From Thermodesulfobium narugense DSM 14796 (GTDB lineage: Bacteria; Thermodesulfobiota; Thermodesulfobiia; Thermodesulfobiales; Thermodesulfobiaceae): 64,000 bases of DNA. Location of the stretch: assembly GCF_000212395.1 (NCBI RefSeq), contig NC_015499.1:1313421-1377420 (forward strand). Reading direction: 5' to 3'. The notes beneath the pieces are model-generated. The model made no database searches, was not told the origin of the DNA, and worked only from the letters and a program-made list of their open reading frames with translations. Made by a program: the position numbers and the translations under genes. Of this stretch, positions 8,467-24,410 are shown in pieces. Positions within the stretch are counted from its first letter, which is position 1. Every line of letters begins with the position of its first letter.

Positions 8467-9453
8467 TTGAAAAGGGGAATAATTGGTATTGTAATATTAA
8501 TTGCAGCCTTAATTTTTGTTGCAGGATGTGCAGCTTCTAATAAGGGGGGAAATCAACAAACAGAAAAAGTAAAATTATATCTTTATGGAGCTGGGACTTT
8601 AGCCAAACCGTTTAAAGAAGTTATAGGTGAGTTTGAAAAAAAATACCCTAATGTAACAATAGAATCCCAATTTGGTGGAAGTGTAAAAATGGTCAAACAA
8701 GTAACTGAGTTGCATCAACCTGGTGATATAATTGCAGTTGCTGACTACAACGTAATTCCCAAGTATATGTTTGGAGAAAATGGGCAAACAAAATATACGG
8801 ATTGGTATATAGGTTTCGTAAATAACTCTATTACTTTTGTATATACCGATAAAAGCAAATATGCAAACGAAATAAATTCAACTAATTGGTACAAGATTCT
8901 ATCGGAAAAAGGAGTTCAAATTGGCAGATCCAATCCTAATACTGATCCTTCGGGGTATCAAACACTTCAAATGTTAAAATTAGCAGAGAAATATTATAAA
9001 GATCCAACAATTTATGAAAAAATTCTCGCAAACGCACCAGAAAAAAATATCAGAGATACAGAAACAGAGTTACTCAGCTCTCTTGAAGCTGGTCAGATTG
9101 ACTACCTTGCCATCTATAAATCCGATGCACTACAACATCACTTGAAATATTTAGACTTACCAGCGCAAATAAACCTAAGCGATCCAAAATATGCTAACTT
9201 TTATAAAGAAGCAGTAGTAGATACAAAAAATGGTGAACTATCCGGAAAGCCAATTATCTATGCAATAACAATACCAAATAACTCTAAAAATACCGAATGG
9301 GCTATAAAATTCGTAGAATTCTTGCTTGGGCCAGATGGACAATCAATAATGAAGAAGAATGGTTTTGGTGTTTTAGAAAAACCATATGCAAATAATGTTG
9401 ATAAAGTTCCAGCAGAACTCAAAAATTTTGTAAGCGAGTGGCCAAAGCAATAA
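8467..9453 (+). CDS. wtpA: Tungstate ABC transporter, substrate-binding lipoprotein
   Basis: This 328-residue periplasmic-binding lipoprotein has a signal peptide ending in the lipobox VAGC, with Cys around residue 21. The body matches the WtpA/ModA class of oxyanion-binding proteins: LYLYGAGTLAKP at the start of the mature part, and the WtpA-typical GRSNPNTDPSGYQTLQ near the middle. WtpA proteins bind tungstate (and molybdate) for the WtpBC importer. The start is TTG 8467, with AAGGGAAG upstream. The permease and ATPase genes follow with overlap or near-overlap, and the upstream RNA looks like a Moco/Tuco riboswitch, which supports tungstate/molybdate as ligand. Confidence 0.9.
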   Translation: MKRGIIGIVILIAALIFVAGCAASNKGGNQQTEKVKLYLYGAGTLAKPFKEVIGEFEKKYPNVTIESQFGGSVKMVKQVTELHQPGDIIAVADYNVIPKYMFGENGQTKYTDWYIGFVNNSITFVYTDKSKYANEINSTNWYKILSEKGVQIGRSNPNTDPSGYQTLQMLKLAEKYYKDPTIYEKILANAPEKNIRDTETELLSSLEAGQIDYLAIYKSDALQHHLKYLDLPAQINLSDPKYANFYKEAVVDTKNGELSGKPIIYAITIPNNSKNTEWAIKFVEFLLGPDGQSIMKKNGFGVLEKPYANNVDKVPAELKNFVSEWPKQ

Positions 9454-9455
9454 AA

Positions 9456-10274
9456 ATGAAAAACAAGGTGGACAGCAAGAGATTTCATTTTAATTGGTTA
9501 CTTTTAACTTTTTGGTTATTTTCGATGATAATTTTAGGCTTCATTGTTCTACCACTTATTGAAATGTTGTTAGAACAACCAATTGACATGATTATAAAAG
9601 CTGCTCAGATGCCTGATATTACCAATTCAATTCTTTTAAGCATAGAGGCTTCACTCATCACTTCAATTATTGCAGTCATATTTGGAACTCCTCTGTCATA
9701 CATTCTAGCTAGAATTGAATTTCCATATAAATCAATTGTTGAAGCTATTGTAAACCTTCCTCTTGCTGTCCCACATACAGTGGCAGGCATCGCACTTTTA
9801 TTCGTTTTTGGCAGGTCAGGTCCCATTGGTCATATAACCGAACGTTTTGGAATCAGTTTTTGGGGAACTATATTTGGAATAATTGTTGGAATGCTCTTTG
9901 TAAGTTTACCATATATGATAAACTCTGCTAGGCTGGGATTTGAGAACGTCGATATTAGAATAGAAAAAGCTGCAAGAACATTGGGTGCTACAAATAGACA
10001 GGTTTTCTTTCACATATCTCTTCCTCTTGCTTTTAGGTCTATTTTAAGTGGAATGGTTCTTACTTATGCAAGATCTATTGCCGAATTCGGAGCTGTTATA
10101 ATTTTAGCCTACTATCCAGAAACAGCACCAGTAAAAATATATGAACTATTTCTTACAGGAGGGCTAAAACAATCTTCTGCCGCAGCAGTATTGCTATTAA
10201 TTATTACAATTTCAACTTTCATCATATTTCGATATCTAACAGATTTTAATAGAAAAGGGCATAAATTAAAGTGA
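9456..10274 (+). CDS. wtpB: Tungstate ABC transporter, permease
   Basis: This is a membrane protein of about 272 residues with six hydrophobic segments. It has the binding-protein-dependent permease EAA-type loop (EKAARTLGATNRQVFFHISLP), which docks the ATPase. It belongs to the ModB/WtpB/CysT-type permeases. The open frame extends to a GTG at 9438 inside wtpA; I prefer ATG 9456, two bases after the wtpA stop, though no strong ribosome site favours either. Its stop overlaps the GTG start of wtpC, so translation is probably coupled. Confidence 0.9.
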   Translation: MKNKVDSKRFHFNWLLLTFWLFSMIILGFIVLPLIEMLLEQPIDMIIKAAQMPDITNSILLSIEASLITSIIAVIFGTPLSYILARIEFPYKSIVEAIVNLPLAVPHTVAGIALLFVFGRSGPIGHITERFGISFWGTIFGIIVGMLFVSLPYMINSARLGFENVDIRIEKAARTLGATNRQVFFHISLPLAFRSILSGMVLTYARSIAEFGAVIILAYYPETAPVKIYELFLTGGLKQSSAAAVLLLIITISTFIIFRYLTDFNRKGHKLK

Positions 10275-11359
10275 GTTTTTTTAAAGTTAAAAACCTTAAA
10301 GTAAAAGTAGGAAATTTTATTCTAGACAACATTTCATTTGAACTAAATAAAGGTCAAATTCTTGCAATTCTAGGACCAAGTGGTTCAGGCAAGACTCTTT
10401 TATTAGAATCCATTGCAGGCTTTCATCTCCCCGATAAAGGGGAGCTTTATCTTGAAAATAAAGATATAAGCATATTGCCTATAGAAAAAAGGGAAATAGG
10501 CTTTATGTTTCAAGATTATGCTCTTTTCCCTCATTGGAACGTTAAAGAAAACATCTTATCTTCTTTTAAGTTTTCAAAAGGATATAAAAAAATTAATATC
10601 AATCCAGAAGAAATAATAAAAATGCTTCATATTGAAGATCTTCTAGATAGATATCCTAACAACTTAAGTGGAGGAGAAAAACAAAGAGTAGCCTTAGCAA
10701 GATCTTTAATTACAAATCCGAAAATGTTCTTGTTCGATGAACCTATGTCAGCACTTGACACAAGAACCAGAGAAAACCTAAGAGATGAACTTCTAAGTAT
10801 ATTAAAAAAACTCTCTTTAAGCGCAATATATGTAACTCACGATCACATTGAAGCCTTTACTTTAGGAGATTTGGTAGGAATAATTAAAGAGGGAAGATTA
10901 ATTCAAATTGGAGAAAAAAACCAAATATTTAGAAAACCAAACTCTATCTTTGTAGCAGATTTTATAGGAATAGAAAACCTATTTTCTGCAACAATTAAAT
11001 CAGTAAAAAGAATTTCGCCAGAATTATATTGTATTGAAGCCAAACATAAACAAATTGTATTTGAAATAATTTCGAATGAGAAGCTTTCAGCCAATGAAGA
11101 AGTTTTTCTTTCAATAAGATCTGAAGACATTAGCTTTTTAGACGAATCAGACGAAAGATACAACAATCTAAAAAACATAATAACTTTAGAGGTTATTGAT
11201 ATAGTTCAAGTTGATTTTTTTTATAAAATTTTTTTAAGCGGTGACGTTCATCTTAAAGCAATAACTTTAAAAGATTCCATTAAAAAGCATAAAATAAATA
11301 TTGGCAAAAAAATTAAAATATATATTGATCCTGAATACATTCATATTATAAAAACATAA
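10271..11359 (+). CDS. wtpC: Tungstate ABC transporter, ATP-binding protein
   Basis: This 362-residue ABC ATPase has Walker A GPSGSGKT at residues 35-42, the signature LSGGEKQRVALA, Walker B MFLFDEP, and the switch histidine in VTHDH. A C-terminal extension of about 130 residues fits the TOBE-like oxyanion-binding domain found in ModC/WtpC and PotA-type ATPases. It starts at GTG 10271, overlapping the wtpB TGA by four bases. It ends seven bases before the convergent MgtC gene. Confidence 0.92.
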   Translation: MSFFKVKNLKVKVGNFILDNISFELNKGQILAILGPSGSGKTLLLESIAGFHLPDKGELYLENKDISILPIEKREIGFMFQDYALFPHWNVKENILSSFKFSKGYKKININPEEIIKMLHIEDLLDRYPNNLSGGEKQRVALARSLITNPKMFLFDEPMSALDTRTRENLRDELLSILKKLSLSAIYVTHDHIEAFTLGDLVGIIKEGRLIQIGEKNQIFRKPNSIFVADFIGIENLFSATIKSVKRISPELYCIEAKHKQIVFEIISNEKLSANEEVFLSIRSEDISFLDESDERYNNLKNIITLEVIDIVQVDFFYKIFLSGDVHLKAITLKDSIKKHKINIGKKIKIYIDPEYIHIIKT

Positions 11360-12494: not shown

Positions 12495-12875
12495 ATGAGA
12501 ATGACGCCTCAGAGGAAGTTAATTATAGACATATTAAAAAGCACAAAGTCACATCCTGATGCGTTATGGATTTACCAGAACGCTATAAAGAAAATGCCAA
12601 GGATGGGACTTGGTACTGTTTACAGAACGCTGGATCAACTCGAAAGAGATGGGGAAATAAAAAGAATTGATTTCAAAGGAATAGCTCATTACGACGCAAA
12701 TGTAAACGTTCATCCACATCTTTTATGCTCAAAATGCGGAAAAATAGTTGATATAAGTGACAGCTACGATCTTGACATAAAAAATTTTGATTTAAAGGGT
12801 TTCAAAGTTGAATCTATAAACCTTGATATTATAGGTATTTGCCCTGAATGTCAATCAAGAAAGGGTGAAAGTTAG
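12495..12875 (+). CDS. Fur family transcriptional regulator (PerR-like)
   Basis: This 126-residue metalloregulator has an N-terminal winged helix (MTPQRKLIIDILK; GLGTVYRTLDQLERDGEI) and a C-terminal dimerisation/metal domain with HYDANVNVHPH. Its two CxxC pairs, C78/C81 and C116/C119, should hold the structural zinc. The short N-terminus and the rubredoxin-like gene in front favour a PerR-type peroxide sensor over an iron-uptake Fur, but the regulatory metal ligands do not settle it. The stop lies two bases before the tautomerase ATG. Confidence 0.88.
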   Translation: MRMTPQRKLIIDILKSTKSHPDALWIYQNAIKKMPRMGLGTVYRTLDQLERDGEIKRIDFKGIAHYDANVNVHPHLLCSKCGKIVDISDSYDLDIKNFDLKGFKVESINLDIIGICPECQSRKGES

Positions 12876-14469: not shown

Positions 14470-16347
14470 TCAAAAAGACATAATACTTAGTGTTGCTCCA
14501 AATGACCAACTTCTACCACTTCCATTATCACTTTTTTGATTTACCGCATAAAATTCTATTGGTGTAGAAGCCAGACCTATAGTAAACCTAAACCCCTGAC
14601 TCATTCTTATCCAGGGATATGGTATTGGAATAGTTTTTGTAAAACCAATATAGTATTTTGTATCGAAAGGAGCCCCAGATTCACTTCTTGAAAATTCAAT
14701 TTCAGAAAATACAAAATCCAAACCAAGCCTATTTAATATATCTTTTTTATTTAAAACGTCTGCATATTTCATAAGGTATATATTTCTTCTTTCCCAAAAG
14801 GCATTAACTGTTTGTCCACCTGTTCTTAGATTATCGTCAAGCCCTCTAAAACGAATAATCCAGTTTTTACCTAAATAATAGTCAAGATCAAGTCTCAAAT
14901 TAATCCAGGAGTTCCTGCCCACAGTATAGTATGAAGAATATGCATAACCTCCAAATCTATTTGAATCTATTCCAAGTATAACGGGCCTACCAATAGTAGT
15001 TTCATATTCTAGATTTGTGTTCAGGTGTCTATCTGCCCTCATATAAAAGTCGTCATTAGGGTCCAAATGAATACTTCCAATTCGTAAATATGTATTTTTA
15101 ATGAAATTATCCCATTCTACCATAGCGCCAATTTTTTCAAATCCTCCTGTAAATGAACCGGTATTTGAAGAAAAACTGCTAACGCTTCCTCTTTGAGAAG
15201 TAAAATCAAAGTTGTCCAGCCTTCCATAAAAGCCAAGATATTCTGGATTATATTCGTCTTTTGATTTGTAAAGATCCCATCTCCACGCAAAATGAGGTTT
15301 TGTAAACATAATATTGTCAAAATAACCCCATTCATAATGAGCATTCTTAGTATCCCAATCAAAATTGGCACCAATTAAAGTTCTTCTTTCTCTCGCCTTG
15401 CTGTAATCTAATCTTATATCAGATGATACATTAGTAATCACGTTATTCCCGATCTTTGATAAATCACCTTTGTAAGATTCTATAGGTACGTGTTGTTCAA
15501 TATATCCTACTGTAGGGTCAGCTTTCCCAAGAATATACTGATCGCTTATGTGCGTATTGTTAAAATTTGCCCAAAAGGAAAAGTCTTGTTTATGAAGTCT
15601 ATTTGTAGTGTCATATATCGAACCGCCAACCTGTCCTGAATAATCATAATTTATAACAAAACCTTGATCAGCCGTATCTGACCATGTAATGTTTAACCTC
15701 TTGGTTATAATAGGAACTACTCCCAAAACAAGTCTTCCTGGAGGATTGCCAATTTGACCCGCCTTTGCAACAGGTATATATATATTGTTTGGAAAAAGAG
15801 TTTCTCTTTGGCGTGGAATGCTGATATATTCAATTTTACCATCAGCCATTAATACTGGAATCCTTGCACCTTCTGCAAGAGCCTTGTCAGTTACGCCAAC
15901 GGGTACCATAAAACTATTTCCTGGTTTTTGCATATCTTTATAAGTGATATCAATTGTTTCATTTCCAAGTTTTACAGTCTTAGTAACATTTGATTTGGCA
16001 TTTTTATCCTGATATGTAAAAATTTTTCCATCTATCAAGAGAATTTGTCCACTTTTAGCGCTATTTGTATCCATAACTATACTTTCATTAGCATAAGAGG
16101 AGTTGTTAGAGAAACAAACAAAAAACGTTGATAAAAAAAAGATACCAACGAAGAAAGTTTTATTTTTGCTAAAAGACAAGTTTCTTAATCTAGAGAAGAA
16201 AAATGAAGTTAAAAAACTATCTTTTTTCCCAAATAAAAATAGACGAAGTTGATAAAGCCTTTCCTTTAGTATAATAAAATCAAAAAGAGCATTCTTAATA
16301 CTGTAATCACGATATGTTTTTTTATAAGAATTATTGTTCATTTTCAC
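14470..16347 (-). CDS. Predicted outer-membrane beta-barrel protein of the envelope cluster
   Basis: I do not recognise a named family. This 625-residue protein has an unusually long basic N-terminus (about 65 residues), then a hydrophobic stretch around residues 65-85 ending in a possible signal-peptidase site (SSYA, then NES). The mature part starts with a beta-rich region of about 150 residues. From about residue 210 it is a long run of alternating aromatic/polar strands with short turns, typical of a beta-barrel. It ends in Phe (LSIMSF), the usual BAM recognition end. The start is GTG 16347, overlapping the upstream stop, or ATG 16341. It is the outer-membrane candidate of the cluster that includes TolQ/ExbD-like genes. 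Confidence 0.75.
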   Translation of the reverse strand: MKMNNNSYKKTYRDYSIKNALFDFIILKERLYQLRLFLFGKKDSFLTSFFFSRLRNLSFSKNKTFFVGIFFLSTFFVCFSNNSSYANESIVMDTNSAKSGQILLIDGKIFTYQDKNAKSNVTKTVKLGNETIDITYKDMQKPGNSFMVPVGVTDKALAEGARIPVLMADGKIEYISIPRQRETLFPNNIYIPVAKAGQIGNPPGRLVLGVVPIITKRLNITWSDTADQGFVINYDYSGQVGGSIYDTTNRLHKQDFSFWANFNNTHISDQYILGKADPTVGYIEQHVPIESYKGDLSKIGNNVITNVSSDIRLDYSKARERRTLIGANFDWDTKNAHYEWGYFDNIMFTKPHFAWRWDLYKSKDEYNPEYLGFYGRLDNFDFTSQRGSVSSFSSNTGSFTGGFEKIGAMVEWDNFIKNTYLRIGSIHLDPNDDFYMRADRHLNTNLEYETTIGRPVILGIDSNRFGGYAYSSYYTVGRNSWINLRLDLDYYLGKNWIIRFRGLDDNLRTGGQTVNAFWERRNIYLMKYADVLNKKDILNRLGLDFVFSEIEFSRSESGAPFDTKYYIGFTKTIPIPYPWIRMSQGFRFTIGLASTPIEFYAVNQKSDNGSGRSWSFGATLSIMSF

Positions 16348-16880
16348 GGTTCTTGATATATAAACCCTTCATAAAAAATGTGAATGTTGTCATTAGAAGA
16401 CGTTCCCTCCAAAAAGACTGCTTTCTTTTTTACAGGAATTTGTTCTAAATTATTCAGAATTTCAAAACCCATTTTTTCTAAGACTATCCTTGCATCATTA
16501 ATTGAAAGCCCTTCAATATCAGGGATTAAACCCATCACTTCTGCCTCTCTAAGTTTAAGATCTAAACCCCACTTCCCAAACTTATAGGACATATACAGAT
16601 TGTATCTTTCTACTTTAAGAGTAGGGTAATTTTTTTTAACCCAGTCAAAGACATCATCAATCTTTTTCTCATTTTTTTTATAAGAATCTTCTAAAGAATA
16701 CAACTCACTAGCAGTACCAAAAACTACTACTATGCCATTTTGAGTCCTAAAAACAATGTTATCTTCAGGTTCTGCAAACACAAAACTCTGGGAAATCAAA
16801 ATTGAGCAAAAAGAGAATAAAATCAAAAACAAGACAAAAAAATTAATCCTTAAATTTTTTAAATTTATAATTCTTCTCAT
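16344..16880 (-). CDS. Exported protein with a PASTA-like C-terminal domain
   Basis: This 178-residue protein has a clear signal peptide: basic start MRRIINLKNLR, hydrophobic core, SFVFA cleavage site before EPED around residue 37. A short periplasmic domain follows. From about residue 117 the segment GLIPDIEGLSINDARIVLEK resembles the core of a PASTA domain, and a second half continues to the C-terminus. PASTA domains often bind peptidoglycan, so this could anchor the cluster to the cell wall (inference). ATG 16880 overlaps the stop of the upstream gene; its own stop overlaps the barrel gene start. Confidence 0.65.
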   Translation of the reverse strand: MRRIINLKNLRINFFVLFLILFSFCSILISQSFVFAEPEDNIVFRTQNGIVVVFGTASELYSLEDSYKKNEKKIDDVFDWVKKNYPTLKVERYNLYMSYKFGKWGLDLKLREAEVMGLIPDIEGLSINDARIVLEKMGFEILNNLEQIPVKKKAVFLEGTSSNDNIHIFYEGFIYQEP

Positions 16881-17608
16881 TACATCAAATACACCTTGCT
16901 AAGTTTTTTGAAAAAAGCGTCAATAAAAGTTTTATAAGAATCAAAATCTGGCGGAGGATCTTGATCTAAGAGTGTCAAAAGATAATACTTTTGCTCCTGG
17001 CCTACACCCCTATTCATTCTTTCTATCTGAGAGTATGTTAATCTTATCATCCTAACTTGAAGCGGCAAAAAGTCCAAACCGTATATGCTTCTCTCTTTAA
17101 CATTATAAAGATCTGGAAAATATGTAACCTTTTCTAAAGCACTTCTAATATCAAGATAATGTAAGAGTTTTTGTTCAACTTTATCATTTAAAGCTTTACT
17201 AAAAATAGGATCGTCAATAGGCATAGAATCCTCTTTTAATCTTTGCTCAGCATTCACGTAAGCAGAAAAAAGTTCTTTTGGAACGTCCTGAGCATGCCCT
17301 AGTATATACATTGCCTTTAAAGAGTCTTCCTCAGAAAGAGATTTTAGTTTTGGCAAGTTTCCTCTTGAAAATGTATAGAAATATCTATATGAAAGATCAT
17401 TTGCTTTCTTTTCCCAAATTTGAATTATTTCCTGGGACAAATTTACTACATCAGCGTAAGCATCCTTATTTAAGAAAAGAAAGTTACTTGCAGAAAGAAA
17501 AATAAATAAAAATACAGAAAAAAATAAAATAAAAAAGACCTTCTTGAAGGCAAAGAAAACTAAACCTCTTTTTATATCTTTAATCTTAAAAAAATTTGAA
17601 TTTATAAT
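16880..17608 (-). CDS. Exported protein of unknown function with probable AUU start
   Basis: No family recognised. The canonical frame starts at TTG 17440, but the reading frame continues upstream for 56 sense codons that encode a textbook signal peptide: basic region KIKDIKRG, a long Phe/Leu/Ile core, and AYA before Asp as cleavage site, directly before residue 53. No ATG, GTG or TTG exists in that extension. An ATT at 17608 lies 10 bases after GGAGG (17623-17619), and a stop lies just upstream. I therefore place the start at ATT 17608 (242 residues). The mature protein (about 190 residues) is helical and charged, and lies between the ExbD-like and PASTA-like genes. Confidence 0.65.
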   Translation of the reverse strand: MINSNFFKIKDIKRGLVFFAFKKVFFILFFSVFLFIFLSASNFLFLNKDAYADVVNLSQEIIQIWEKKANDLSYRYFYTFSRGNLPKLKSLSEEDSLKAMYILGHAQDVPKELFSAYVNAEQRLKEDSMPIDDPIFSKALNDKVEQKLLHYLDIRSALEKVTYFPDLYNVKERSIYGLDFLPLQVRMIRLTYSQIERMNRGVGQEQKYYLLTLLDQDPPPDFDSYKTFIDAFFKKLSKVYLM

Positions 17609-17629
17609 ACTTTATATTCCTCCAAATTT

Positions 17630-18022
17630 TTATTTTCTTATATCAATATACTCGCTTGAGCCAAATTTACCCCTTAACTCCTTTTGAAGTGCTTCGTTTT
17701 TAGCTTGAAGTTCTGAAACTTTAGCCTCAAGCTGAGCAATTTGTGATAAAAGCTTTTGTCTTTCACTCTGAGTAAATTGGTTCTGATTTTTGTAAACATT
17801 TTGTTCGTTTGCTGGAATTTTGCTTCTTAACATATTATTTTCTTTTACAAGAGCCGCAATCATTTCTTGACTTTGCTGAAGTTGTTCTTGAAGATTACTT
17901 GTAGAAACTTCTTGCGGTTTAAAGTAAGCAATAGACAGCAACGCAACAAATACAATTACTAACATAAAAGCAAAGTCAATGAATGGCATAAGAAAAGTAA
18001 TACGTCTTTTTGGAGAAGCCAT
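17630..18022 (-). CDS. ExbD/TolR-like membrane protein with coiled-coil tail
   Basis: This 130-residue protein has one N-terminal membrane segment, residues about 10-34, containing TFLMPFIDFAFMLVIVF. The pattern P-x-x-D followed by a hydrophobic run with Phe matches the proton-path Asp (D16 here) of ExbD/TolR/MotB-type proteins. The usual periplasmic ExbD or OmpA-like domain is absent; a Gln/Glu/Lys-rich coiled coil (about residues 42-120) replaces it. It starts one base after the stop of the TolQ/ExbB-like gene, so the two are translated together and probably form one complex in the inner membrane. Confidence 0.7.
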   Translation of the reverse strand: MASPKRRITFLMPFIDFAFMLVIVFVALLSIAYFKPQEVSTSNLQEQLQQSQEMIAALVKENNMLRSKIPANEQNVYKNQNQFTQSERQKLLSQIAQLEAKVSELQAKNEALQKELRGKFGSSEYIDIRK

Positions 18023-18023
18023 C

Positions 18024-18425
18024 TTACGAAAGTCTAGCCGAAATAGCTGACAATATGACTGATATCAAAAGTCCAGTAATTGTCGCTTCAATTTTGATAG
18101 AAACACCATATCCTACCATTTCAACATTGTGGGCAGCAATAGCAGGGCCAATAACCTGGCCTAAACCATAAAGAGTTACAACAAGACCTAAACCCTGAGC
18201 TACCCCACCCATTGTAATTAGCTTTTCCTGTGGAGATTCCTTAGAAATAAGACCAGCCCATGCCGCCCCAACAGGTACTATTGCAGCCCACACAGTACTT
18301 CTTGCAATAAAATAAACCAAAGGAGCTGCTACCAAAAGTAAAAACGTTATCATTACTAGATCTATTCTATCCCTAACAAATCCTTGTAAAGTAGATTTTT
18401 TTGTACTCAATTCTATTTCCTTCAT
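18024..18425 (-). CDS. Minimal TolQ/ExbB/MotA-like proton-channel protein
   Basis: This 133-residue membrane protein has about four hydrophobic segments. The last two resemble the conserved core of the MotA/TolQ/ExbB family: GGVAQGLGLVVTLYGLGQVI corresponds to the GLLGTVxGM helix, and EATITGLLISVILSAI to the TTxxGLxxAI helix. It is about half the length of ExbB/TolQ and lacks their large cytoplasmic loop. The partner gene downstream carries the expected single-Asp helix. A flux-type stator role is inferred from this pairing; an alternative is an unrelated small membrane protein. ATG 18425 follows AAGGGTG at a long spacing. Confidence 0.65.
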   Translation of the reverse strand: MKEIELSTKKSTLQGFVRDRIDLVMITFLLLVAAPLVYFIARSTVWAAIVPVGAAWAGLISKESPQEKLITMGGVAQGLGLVVTLYGLGQVIGPAIAAHNVEMVGYGVSIKIEATITGLLISVILSAISARLS

Positions 18426-18504
18426 ACTTCAAATTTCACCCTTCGTAAAATTAATTTATAACCTATACAATTTTAACAATAAAAAATAAAAAAACTTATT
18501 ATTT

Positions 18505-19122
18505 CTAAGAACTTCTATTTTTTAACCATTCTTTGAAAATTGTAAAAAATAAAAATAAAACACCTATTAACCACAATAAGGGTATTCCATATTCAATTAC
18601 TGGAGGATTTGGCATATTAAGAGATACGTTATTAGGAGTATTTGTCTGATTTTGTAGATTTTTATTAAGCCCAATATTTATTGTATTATTTCCCTTTTCT
18701 ACGCTTGCTCCAAGATTAAGTGCTGTAATCTCTAATGGAACCATTGTTCTATCCTGATAAATAAAAGCAGGAGCTAACATTCTTTCTTCTTTATTATTCA
18801 CATTTACTTGAGAACTTTCAATATAAAACTCTATACTTTTATCACCTAATGAAACTTTAACTGTTCTGTGTTGTTCATCCCATGTTACAGTTGCTTTTAA
18901 AGCTTCTGATACAAATCTTACTGGAACGTAAATTAACCCATATCTTATTACCGGAGGCACATCACTTTTGATTTCTTTCCCATCAACAATAATTTTCAAA
19001 TCGTTAGCAATTTTAATATTTGCATCTAAAATCTTTGATGCGCTAACTGGCGTTTGTTCTTGAGCATACGCAGTAGAAAATAGAATACACAGAGCAAAAA
19101 AAATAAAAATAATCCTCTTCAT
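18505..19122 (-). CDS. Copper amine oxidase N-terminal domain protein, C-terminally anchored
   Basis: This 205-residue protein has a signal peptide (MKRIIFIFFALCILFSTAYA, cleavage before residue 21). It then has a copper amine oxidase N1-type domain, roughly residues 40-155, recognisable from VDGKEIKSDVPPVIRYGLIY, VPVRFVSEALKATVTWDE and MVPLEITALNLGA. This domain is common in secreted proteins of Firmicutes-like and thermophilic bacteria and has no oxidase activity by itself. A C-terminal membrane helix (WLIGVLFLFFTIF) with a basic tail would tether it to the inner membrane facing the periplasm. It is 79 bases upstream of the TolQ/ExbB-like gene on the same strand and probably heads the envelope operon. 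Confidence 0.8.
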   Translation of the reverse strand: MKRIIFIFFALCILFSTAYAQEQTPVSASKILDANIKIANDLKIIVDGKEIKSDVPPVIRYGLIYVPVRFVSEALKATVTWDEQHRTVKVSLGDKSIEFYIESSQVNVNNKEERMLAPAFIYQDRTMVPLEITALNLGASVEKGNNTINIGLNKNLQNQTNTPNNVSLNMPNPPVIEYGIPLLWLIGVLFLFFTIFKEWLKNRSS

Positions 19123-19214
19123 ACTTTTAAAATCCTATAAAGCCATGCATATAATTTTTACTCCCTATATAAAAATATTCTTATATTATACACTGTCTTT
19201 AAAATATCCCAAAA

Positions 19215-22866: not shown

Positions 22867-23334
22867 TTAAAAACTTCTTATTTTGTTTAAAATGTTTGTT
22901 GTTGAGAAATCTTTATAAAAAGGAAATATTACAACTTTTCCACCATAGCGATGAACAGTTTCAGCCTCTGGGAGATCTTCAAGCTTATAATCTCCACCTT
23001 TAACGTGAATTAATGGTCTTAATCTTTCAATCGATGATATGGGGTTTTGCTCATTAAAAATAAAGCAATAATCAACAAATCTAATAGAAGCAACAACCAC
23101 GGCTCTATTTTCTTGTTTATTTATAGGTCTAGAATTGCCTTTTAATGCTTTAACTGAGCTGTCAGAATTTATCCCAACAACCAAATAATCTCCCAAAGTT
23201 TTTGCAAATTCGAATAATCTAATATGGCCTTCGTGTACAATATCAAAGCATCCATTTGTAAATACAACCTTTCTGCCTTCAACTAATAAAATTATTTCAT
23301 CTAAAGTCTTAAATACATCTGAAATTTTTTTCAA
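22867..23334 (-). CDS. rfaE2: D-glycero-beta-D-manno-heptose 1-phosphate adenylyltransferase
   Basis: This 155-residue nucleotidyltransferase has TNGCFDIVHEGHIRLFEFAK with the HxGH nucleotide-binding motif, HVKGGDYK, and a C-terminal STTNILNKIR end that matches RfaE2/HldE C-domains. It forms ADP-D-glycero-beta-D-manno-heptose for LPS core. The start is TTG 23334 after GAAAGG. The partner kinase lies directly upstream as a separate gene; in E. coli the two are fused as HldE. Confidence 0.92.
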   Translation of the reverse strand: MKKISDVFKTLDEIILLVEGRKVVFTNGCFDIVHEGHIRLFEFAKTLGDYLVVGINSDSSVKALKGNSRPINKQENRAVVVASIRFVDYCFIFNEQNPISSIERLRPLIHVKGGDYKLEDLPEAETVHRYGGKVVIFPFYKDFSTTNILNKIRSF

Positions 23335-23387
23335 ATTTTTAAAACCTTTCTATCAAAATTATCTAAATTTAAAAACAACCTATATGA

Positions 23388-24410
23388 TTATTCATTTTTT
23401 TTCGATTTTAGAACAATTTTATTATACAAGTCTCTAATTTCCTCTTCTCTAAGGTATCTTTCTATTTCATTAATACTAGTAGTCGAGGTTCCAACTTTTC
23501 TTACAACTATTGCAGCAGCAACATTTGCTAAAAATGTTGAATGAATCATATCGAACCCTGACATTAGCGCCAATGTTAAAACTGCTGTAACTGTATCCCC
23601 TGCACCTGTCACGTCATAAACTTCACTAGAAAATGCGGGGAAATTTATAGTTGATTCTTCAGTAAAAAGAGAAATTCCATCAGCACCCCTTGTAATATGA
23701 ACAGCCTTGCTGCCTAAAAGCTTTAAAAGTTCTCGTCCTGACTGAACAATATCCTCTTCACTCATTAACTTTCTGTCGAAAATAGCCTCAACCTCTTTGA
23801 GGTTGGGGGCAACCGTAGTAAAACCTTTGAATAAGAGATAATTTTTTGCTTTAGAATCAGCTACACAAACTCTATTATCAATTGAATTTACTAAAAATTC
23901 TATTACCTCTTTAGTAATTATTCCCTTTCTATAGTCAGAAACTATTATAGCGCCGCAATCAGGTATTTGTTTTTTTAAAGAATTTATTACTTTTTCAAGT
24001 TCCTCGCTATCAATCTGATTTGAATCTTCGCTATCTACTCTTAAAACTTGTTGTTTTCTGGCAATTAATCTGAGCTTTCTCGTTGTAGGCCTTTTTTTAG
24101 AAACAACCAGGCCAGATGTGTCTATATTTGAATCAAATAAAAGTTCTTTAAGCCTTTCTGACTCAACATCATTGCCGACAAGCCCAACAATAGAAACATT
24201 TGCCCCTAAAGAAGTTAAATTTTTCGCAACATTCGCAGCTCCACCAAGTCTAAATTCACTACTAATATACTTTAAGACTGGAACTGGAGCCTCAGGAGAA
24301 ATCCTTTCCATCTCCCCAAACCAATATTCATCAAGCATAATATCTCCAATAACTAAAATCTTTTTAGAAGTATTAAATTTTAAGGAAAAATTATGAATTT
24401 CAGAAAACAT
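23388..24410 (-). CDS. rfaE1: D-glycero-beta-D-manno-heptose-7-phosphate kinase
   Basis: This 340-residue PfkB-family kinase has the N-terminal IGDIMLDEYWFGEMERISPEA of HldE kinases, the LGGAANVAKNL block, and the anion-hole signature VYDVTGAGDTVTA with the catalytic Asp. It phosphorylates heptose 7-phosphate at C1 for LPS core synthesis and pairs with rfaE2 immediately downstream. ATG 24410 follows AAAGGA. The pair is good evidence for an LPS-bearing outer membrane. Confidence 0.92.
   Translation of the reverse strand: MFSEIHNFSLKFNTSKKILVIGDIMLDEYWFGEMERISPEAPVPVLKYISSEFRLGGAANVAKNLTSLGANVSIVGLVGNDVESERLKELLFDSNIDTSGLVVSKKRPTTRKLRLIARKQQVLRVDSEDSNQIDSEELEKVINSLKKQIPDCGAIIVSDYRKGIITKEVIEFLVNSIDNRVCVADSKAKNYLLFKGFTTVAPNLKEVEAIFDRKLMSEEDIVQSGRELLKLLGSKAVHITRGADGISLFTEESTINFPAFSSEVYDVTGAGDTVTAVLTLALMSGFDMIHSTFLANVAAAIVVRKVGTSTTSINEIERYLREEEIRDLYNKIVLKSKKNE

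Follow-up and report, generated by a model that had tools for sequence, protein, structure and literature searches.

A conserved six-gene envelope cluster of Thermodesulfobium narugense and the ion-driven motor it probably encodes

What do six consecutive genes of the diderm bacterium Thermodesulfobium narugense DSM 14796, lodged between guaA and coaE, build together? They lie on the minus strand at 14470–19122 of a 64,000-nucleotide stretch of contig NC_015499.1 (hereafter the window) in a genome of a single contig (1,898,865 bases), and all six open reading frames were confirmed where the initial annotation had placed them. That annotation had proposed a minimal TolQ/ExbD-like pair, driven by ion flux, with its own periplasmic and outer-membrane proteins. 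The genes are real, are under strong purifying selection and form two modules: a motor module of a CuAO-N-domain protein, a TolQ-like and an ExbD-like protein, and an envelope module of a helical protein, a half-PASTA protein and a beta-barrel. The modules can be told apart because they are joined in the window’s genus and separate, yet co-occurring, in a second, distant phylum. Most likely, the six genes build an ion-driven inner-membrane motor together with the periplasmic and outer-membrane parts on which it acts. The earlier ion-motor interpretation is supported, by fold-level and cross-phylum evidence and not by sequence alone.

The motor module begins with the CuAO-N protein (205 amino acids (aa), 18505..19122), which has a signal peptide, a periplasmic CuAO-N domain (residues 46–148) and, by hydropathy, one C-terminal transmembrane (TM) helix (residues 178–196). 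The domain assignment is clear (Pfam PF07833, 106.4 bits) and the C-terminal anchor proposed earlier stands. The next gene encodes the TolQ/MotA-like A subunit (133 aa, 18024..18425), assigned from an AlphaFold2 (AF2) model with a predicted local distance difference test (pLDDT) score of 77, Foldseek, hhalign and conservation. Among 350,542 chains of the Protein Data Bank (PDB), Foldseek ranked PomA, MotA and TolQ first to eighth (probability up to 0.95) and ZorA tenth and thirteenth, and about half of the top 50 matches come from this superfamily. The predicted topology, from AF2 and from hydropathy with charges, is that of four TM helices with the N terminus inside, which is nearer MotA than TolQ. 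The cytoplasmic part is an 8-residue loop only (residues 61–68, between TM2 and TM3), compared with about 95 residues in the genome’s own MotA, and no cytoplasmic domain of at least two helices is present. In an mBio survey of the motor family (PMC12505986), the cytoplasmic domains have two to five helices, so this subunit would form a class below the smallest. Two threonines, T84 and T115, are invariant across two phyla and fall, in the hhalign register, on the family’s conserved pair of pore threonines in TM3 and TM4 (GLFGTVWG, TAxGL), in an alignment for which the reversed profile scores as high. The modelled fold supports a place in the motor superfamily, short of curated thresholds.

The ExbD/TolR-like B subunit (130 aa, 17630..18022) has an N-in TM helix, with D16 in the motif FLMPxIDFxFMLxIxF, followed by a coiled coil at about residues 42–118. 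Neither the ExbD periplasmic fold nor an OmpA-like domain was found beyond the helix, where the coiled coil and a tail match coiled-coil families, in agreement with the earlier claim that a coiled coil replaces the ExbD periplasmic domain; scans of PHROGs and PADLOC returned coiled-coil-type matches only. D16 is invariant across both phyla. The C-terminal tail is conserved as Y-[IL]-D-[IL]-R-[KE]; because these last residues are kept while the middle of the protein cannot be aligned between phyla, the tail fits a contact site. An hhalign comparison with ExbD gave E 6.3e-5 and a score of 34.6, against 18.6 or less in shuffled and reversed controls, with the ion-binding aspartate aligned. The motif supports membership of the motor superfamily for this subunit too, again below curated thresholds. 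The proton-channel kinship first suggested by membrane-helix patterns is therefore borne out by the TolQ fold (Foldseek top 8) and the ExbD motif (hhalign E 6e-5), and not at the curated Pfam cut-offs.

The envelope module begins with the exported helical protein, which we place at 16880..17608 from its upstream frame and its second-phylum homologue. As called (16880–17440, from TTG 17440), the frame excludes the signal peptide, which is present upstream: there, the frame opens with ATT at 17608 after a Shine–Dalgarno-like GGAGG (start region 17605–17628), two relatives have ATC at the same place, and in the window no ATG, GTG or TTG stands ahead of the signal-peptide end. The start seems to be the ATT. 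Because the frame opens at 17608, the gap to the ExbD-like gene is about 21 bp rather than 189. The two other gaps within the cluster measure 79 bp (CuAO–TolQ) and 1 bp (TolQ–ExbD), the helical and half-PASTA genes overlap by 1 bp, the half-PASTA and barrel genes overlap by 4 bp (GTGA), and the flanking gaps are 92 bp (guaA–CuAO) and 16 bp (barrel–coaE).

The half-PASTA protein (178 aa, 16344..16880), exported and recognised through its second-phylum homologues, carries the motif IPxIEGLSxxxAxxxLxxxGF; it reaches 11.9 of the 23.2 bits needed for PF03793, over the first 23 positions only, so the original PASTA-like label survives as a motif and not as a family match. The last gene encodes the outer-membrane beta-barrel (625 aa as called, 14470..16347), assigned from second-phylum homologues and a low-confidence model. 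Its signal peptide ends near residue 86, and residues 2–56 (16179–16347), ahead of that peptide, evolve far more loosely, with a ratio of non-synonymous to synonymous differences (pN/pS) of 0.4–0.65 versus 0.09–0.10, so translation may in fact begin at the TTG of residue 57. The protein has an N-terminal periplasmic beta region and a conserved C-terminal [SR]xGxx(hydrophobic)SI, which we take to resemble the BAM beta-signal. Its AF2 model matches mostly outer-membrane barrels (BamA, TamA, OpdO, AlgE) at low confidence, and a fold assignment from this model was rejected as the model is too poor. Neither the barrel nor the helical protein matched any family in scans of Pfam and other libraries, and the Pfam scan found no SLH domain in the 625-aa barrel.

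Conservation was examined first within the genus. The TolQ-like protein is present in all four species (4/4), and comparison of the window with the two complete neighbourhoods shows the other five genes in unchanged order, again flanked by guaA and coaE; in a third relative, a contig end falls inside the barrel gene and the remainder of that gene is on another contig. The ratio of non-synonymous to synonymous substitution rates (dN/dS) is 0.02–0.17 for each gene that allowed its calculation. The ExbD-like protein shows zero amino-acid changes between species over its first 40 residues, which contain the TM region, at a proportion of synonymous differences (pS) of 0.59, and the TolQ-like protein is 94–96% identical between species from residue 22 onward. 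Synteny in one genus alone is weak evidence because neighbouring genes are kept too, and when genome contigs were searched with the TolQ-like protein, the only match was a metagenome-assembled genome from the same genus.

Stronger evidence came from profiles of the barrel and of the TolQ-like protein, each run over the same 386 genomes, 382 of them outside the genus. The two independent searches gave strong matches outside the genus in the same three of the 382 genomes, an agreement with a chance of 1 in C(382,3), or about 1e-7, if kinship is ignored. All three belong to one small phylum, of which seven genomes were examined; the TolQ-like protein and the barrel occur together in six of them, and both are missing from the seventh (78% complete). 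Here, the TolQ-like sequence forms the C-terminal part of a longer chain (about 340–376 aa), which starts with a signal peptide, a CuAO-N domain and a TM helix (loci L039, L041 and L043), and the ExbD-like gene follows directly. The three envelope-module genes lie elsewhere, at a second locus, and keep the order helical, half-PASTA, barrel; the barrel homologues are full-length (E 1e-21 to 6e-24), the half-PASTA homologues reach E 3e-7 to 3e-4, and the helical homologue is recognised by position and a weak shared motif, [ST][RK]GxL. The expectation that the genes are kept together is borne out both by their order in the genus and by the recurrence of both modules. Searches of about 380 other genomes with improved profiles yielded no more true members. 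Most of the weak TolQ-profile matches inspected elsewhere (E 1e-5 to 1e-2) were MFS-type transporters with a chance GxGxxIGPA match, and one further weak match fell in a ribosomal-protein locus; these matches were rejected.

Two further proteins accompany the envelope module in the second phylum. One, an LptC/LptA-like protein about 490 aa long, is encoded ahead of the helical gene at the loci that were read (L038:12475–13947, L042:12237–13694) and is a possible extra component. The other, encoded after the barrel, is an exported protein that combines an ILEI domain (E about 1e-9 in Pfam) with a half-PASTA motif (L042:8219–9283, L038:8569–9594).

How might these parts work together? We infer an assembly of the 5:2 type in which five TolQ-like chains, each bearing or accompanied by a periplasmic CuAO-N domain, would surround two ExbD-like helices. 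The fused chain, with CuAO-N outside, a TM helix leading inward and four further helices, would correspond to the same parts made as two chains in the window’s genus, and the five CuAO-N copies would form a periplasmic ring around the pore. Ion flow past the ExbD-like aspartate would turn or displace the dimer, whose coiled coil may act as a shaft that leaves through the CuAO-N ring and ends in the conserved peptide. This peptide, or a moving CuAO-N ring, could engage the helical and half-PASTA proteins, which would relay the movement to the dedicated outer-membrane barrel.

The genome offers a setting for such a machine. It carries its own flagellar MotA and MotB and a separate ExbB–ExbD–TonB locus, where TonB sits with the standard ExbBD pair. 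MotB is the sole OmpA-domain protein found in the genome and hence no Pal was found there; TolA and TolB are absent from the cluster, no genome-wide search for them having been made. The cluster is, as first described, neither a standard Tol nor a TonB system. Eight SLH matches occur in the genome, most of them in open frames of about 530–585 aa, a size fitting OmpM. Reports of Tol–Pal are confined to Gracilicutes, and in diderm Terrabacteria the outer membrane is tethered by OmpM (PMC12204202, PMC10628300). With a Pal-less genome and SLH/OmpM-type proteins, a role in outer-membrane maintenance or constriction is thus plausible, and the glycosyltransferase, rfaE-type and HtrA genes upstream in the window were counted in favour of this reading, as were the second-phylum neighbours of the barrel module: LptC/LptA-like genes, glycosyl/heptosyltransferase-type genes and a gene for an OmpM-type SLH protein. 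The cluster therefore probably encodes a trans-envelope machine of the 5:2 motor family, driven by protons or sodium, with a new architecture and its own barrel, and outer-membrane biogenesis, stabilisation or constriction is its likely task. A bolder version, in which the set forms a separate class of ion-driven trans-envelope machine that replaces Tol–Pal in OmpM-tethered diderms, its motor ring being the smallest known (no cytoplasmic domain) and its barrel its own, is doubtful. One incomplete genome (G386) has SLH proteins and no set, so lineages of the SLH type may manage without it, unless incompleteness explains the absence. Our literature search found nothing on CuAO together with ExbB/ExbD.

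Several results weigh against the motor proposal. Neither the TolQ- nor the ExbD-like protein passes any curated Pfam or NCBIfam model: the former scores 15.1 bits against a cut-off of 22.9 for PF01618 (MotA_ExbB), with a sub-threshold match also in all seven relatives scanned (best 19.4 bits), and the latter 22.0 bits against 25.4 for PF02472. The Foldseek E-values are about 0.5 or worse, and a hidden Markov model (HMM) of 27 ExbB/TolQ/MotA sequences scores shuffles as high as the real TolQ-like sequences. Because the reversed TolQ-like profile equals the real one in hhalign, sequence does not decide the case for the A subunit; PDB sequence searches with five profiles also gave nothing meaningful, the TolQ matches being chance. 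The barrel model has a pLDDT of 42, the homology of the helical protein between phyla is weak (E 0.1–0.4), and the physical link between motor and barrel is a supposition, the two lying at separate loci in the second phylum.

The rival that survives best keeps the motor and differs from the proposal above in task only: the motor would open or load the barrel for a substrate (chelate, polysaccharide, lipid or lipopolysaccharide), through its own shaft and without TonB. The dedicated barrel with its periplasmic N-terminal region would suit such an energised transporter, ExbBD motors serve transport (PMC12204202), and in the second phylum the barrel module adjoins LptC/LptA-like and sugar-transfer genes, namely glycosyl/heptosyltransferase-type genes. 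This role fits almost as well as outer-membrane maintenance or constriction. The cluster, however, has no TonB, the genome already has ExbBD–TonB, and library scans placed the barrel in no plug or receptor family, and we regard transport as possible and the less likely of the two.

It is also conceivable, though rather unlikely, that the likeness to TolQ and ExbD reflects convergence of short hydrophobic proteins, and that the genes form a passive envelope operon without ion flow. The failure of the TolQ-like protein in the sequence-level controls speaks for this reading. The Foldseek ranking and the controls passed by the ExbD-like protein speak against it, as do the Asp and the two Thr, which are invariant and in matching register, and the A-then-B gene order, both seen in both phyla.

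A gliding or surface-adhesin motor of the Agl or Gld kind would draw on the same motor superfamily, which also powers gliding (PMC12204202, PMC12505986), but this seems very improbable for a cluster without adhesin or secretion genes and without likeness to Gld or Agl proteins in library scans, in a genome with flagellar MotAB. A Zorya-like anti-phage island is hardly credible: the PADLOC match to ZorB1 (20.5 bits) lies in the coiled-coil region of the ExbD-like protein and ZorA is among the fold matches, but the set lacks an OmpA-type peptidoglycan domain and any further Zorya gene, occurs in all species of the genus and contains an outer-membrane barrel. Separately, one second-phylum genome (G122) holds a Zorya-like group (L107:1–3135), in which a long coiled-coil protein comes before a MotB-like protein with an OmpA domain.

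In the window, the six genes are part of a long minus-strand run. In order of transcription, this run comprises an HtrA-like protease, a glycosyltransferase, a DegT-type aminotransferase, an rfaE-like sugar kinase and nucleotidyltransferase, an epimerase-like protein, guaB, guaA, the six cluster genes and coaE; the kinase, nucleotidyltransferase, epimerase and guaB labels come from reading the sequences by eye. The rfaE-type functions (sugar kinase and nucleotidyltransferase) sit on two separate genes upstream of guaB (22867–24410). The best promoter-like site in the guaA–CuAO gap, TTGGGA-16-TATAAT (19185..19212, minus strand), is weak, such sites being no commoner than chance regionally. A small Fur-family-like regulator (12495–12875), encoded on the other strand from the cluster, lies close to ABC transporter genes of the molybdate/sulfate type (9438–11359).

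If the proposal of an energised machine in an OmpM-bearing, Pal-less lineage is true, the powering of outer-membrane work there becomes directly testable, and an A subunit without a cytoplasmic domain would set a lower limit on what a 5:2 motor needs. Similar to MotAB and PomAB, which give the best fold matches, the predicted motor has a four-TM, N-inside A subunit and a single-TM B subunit with an Asp and an extended periplasmic part, but it lacks MotA’s cytoplasmic torque domain of roughly 95 residues, and its B subunit has neither plug nor OmpA-like domain. With TolQR and ExbBD it shares the A–B gene pair, the Asp position, apparently the two Thr positions, and the presumed use of an ion gradient on outer-membrane partners; unlike theirs, its A subunit has no condensed cytoplasmic domain and its B subunit no ExbD periplasmic fold, and the cluster lacks TolA, TonB, TolB and Pal, adds CuAO-N to the A subunit and brings its own barrel. 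The vWA-type force transducers linked to TolQ (PMC12204202) likewise place a non-standard periplasmic partner on a TolQ-family motor, in different phyla and with vWA, whereas here the partner would be CuAO-N with a coiled coil and the barrel is dedicated. As with OmpM, the cluster supplies a barrel for the outer membrane of a diderm that has SLH-type proteins, and an OmpM-type gene adjoins the barrel module in the second phylum, but the barrel described here has no SLH domain and OmpM-type proteins are present in addition to it.

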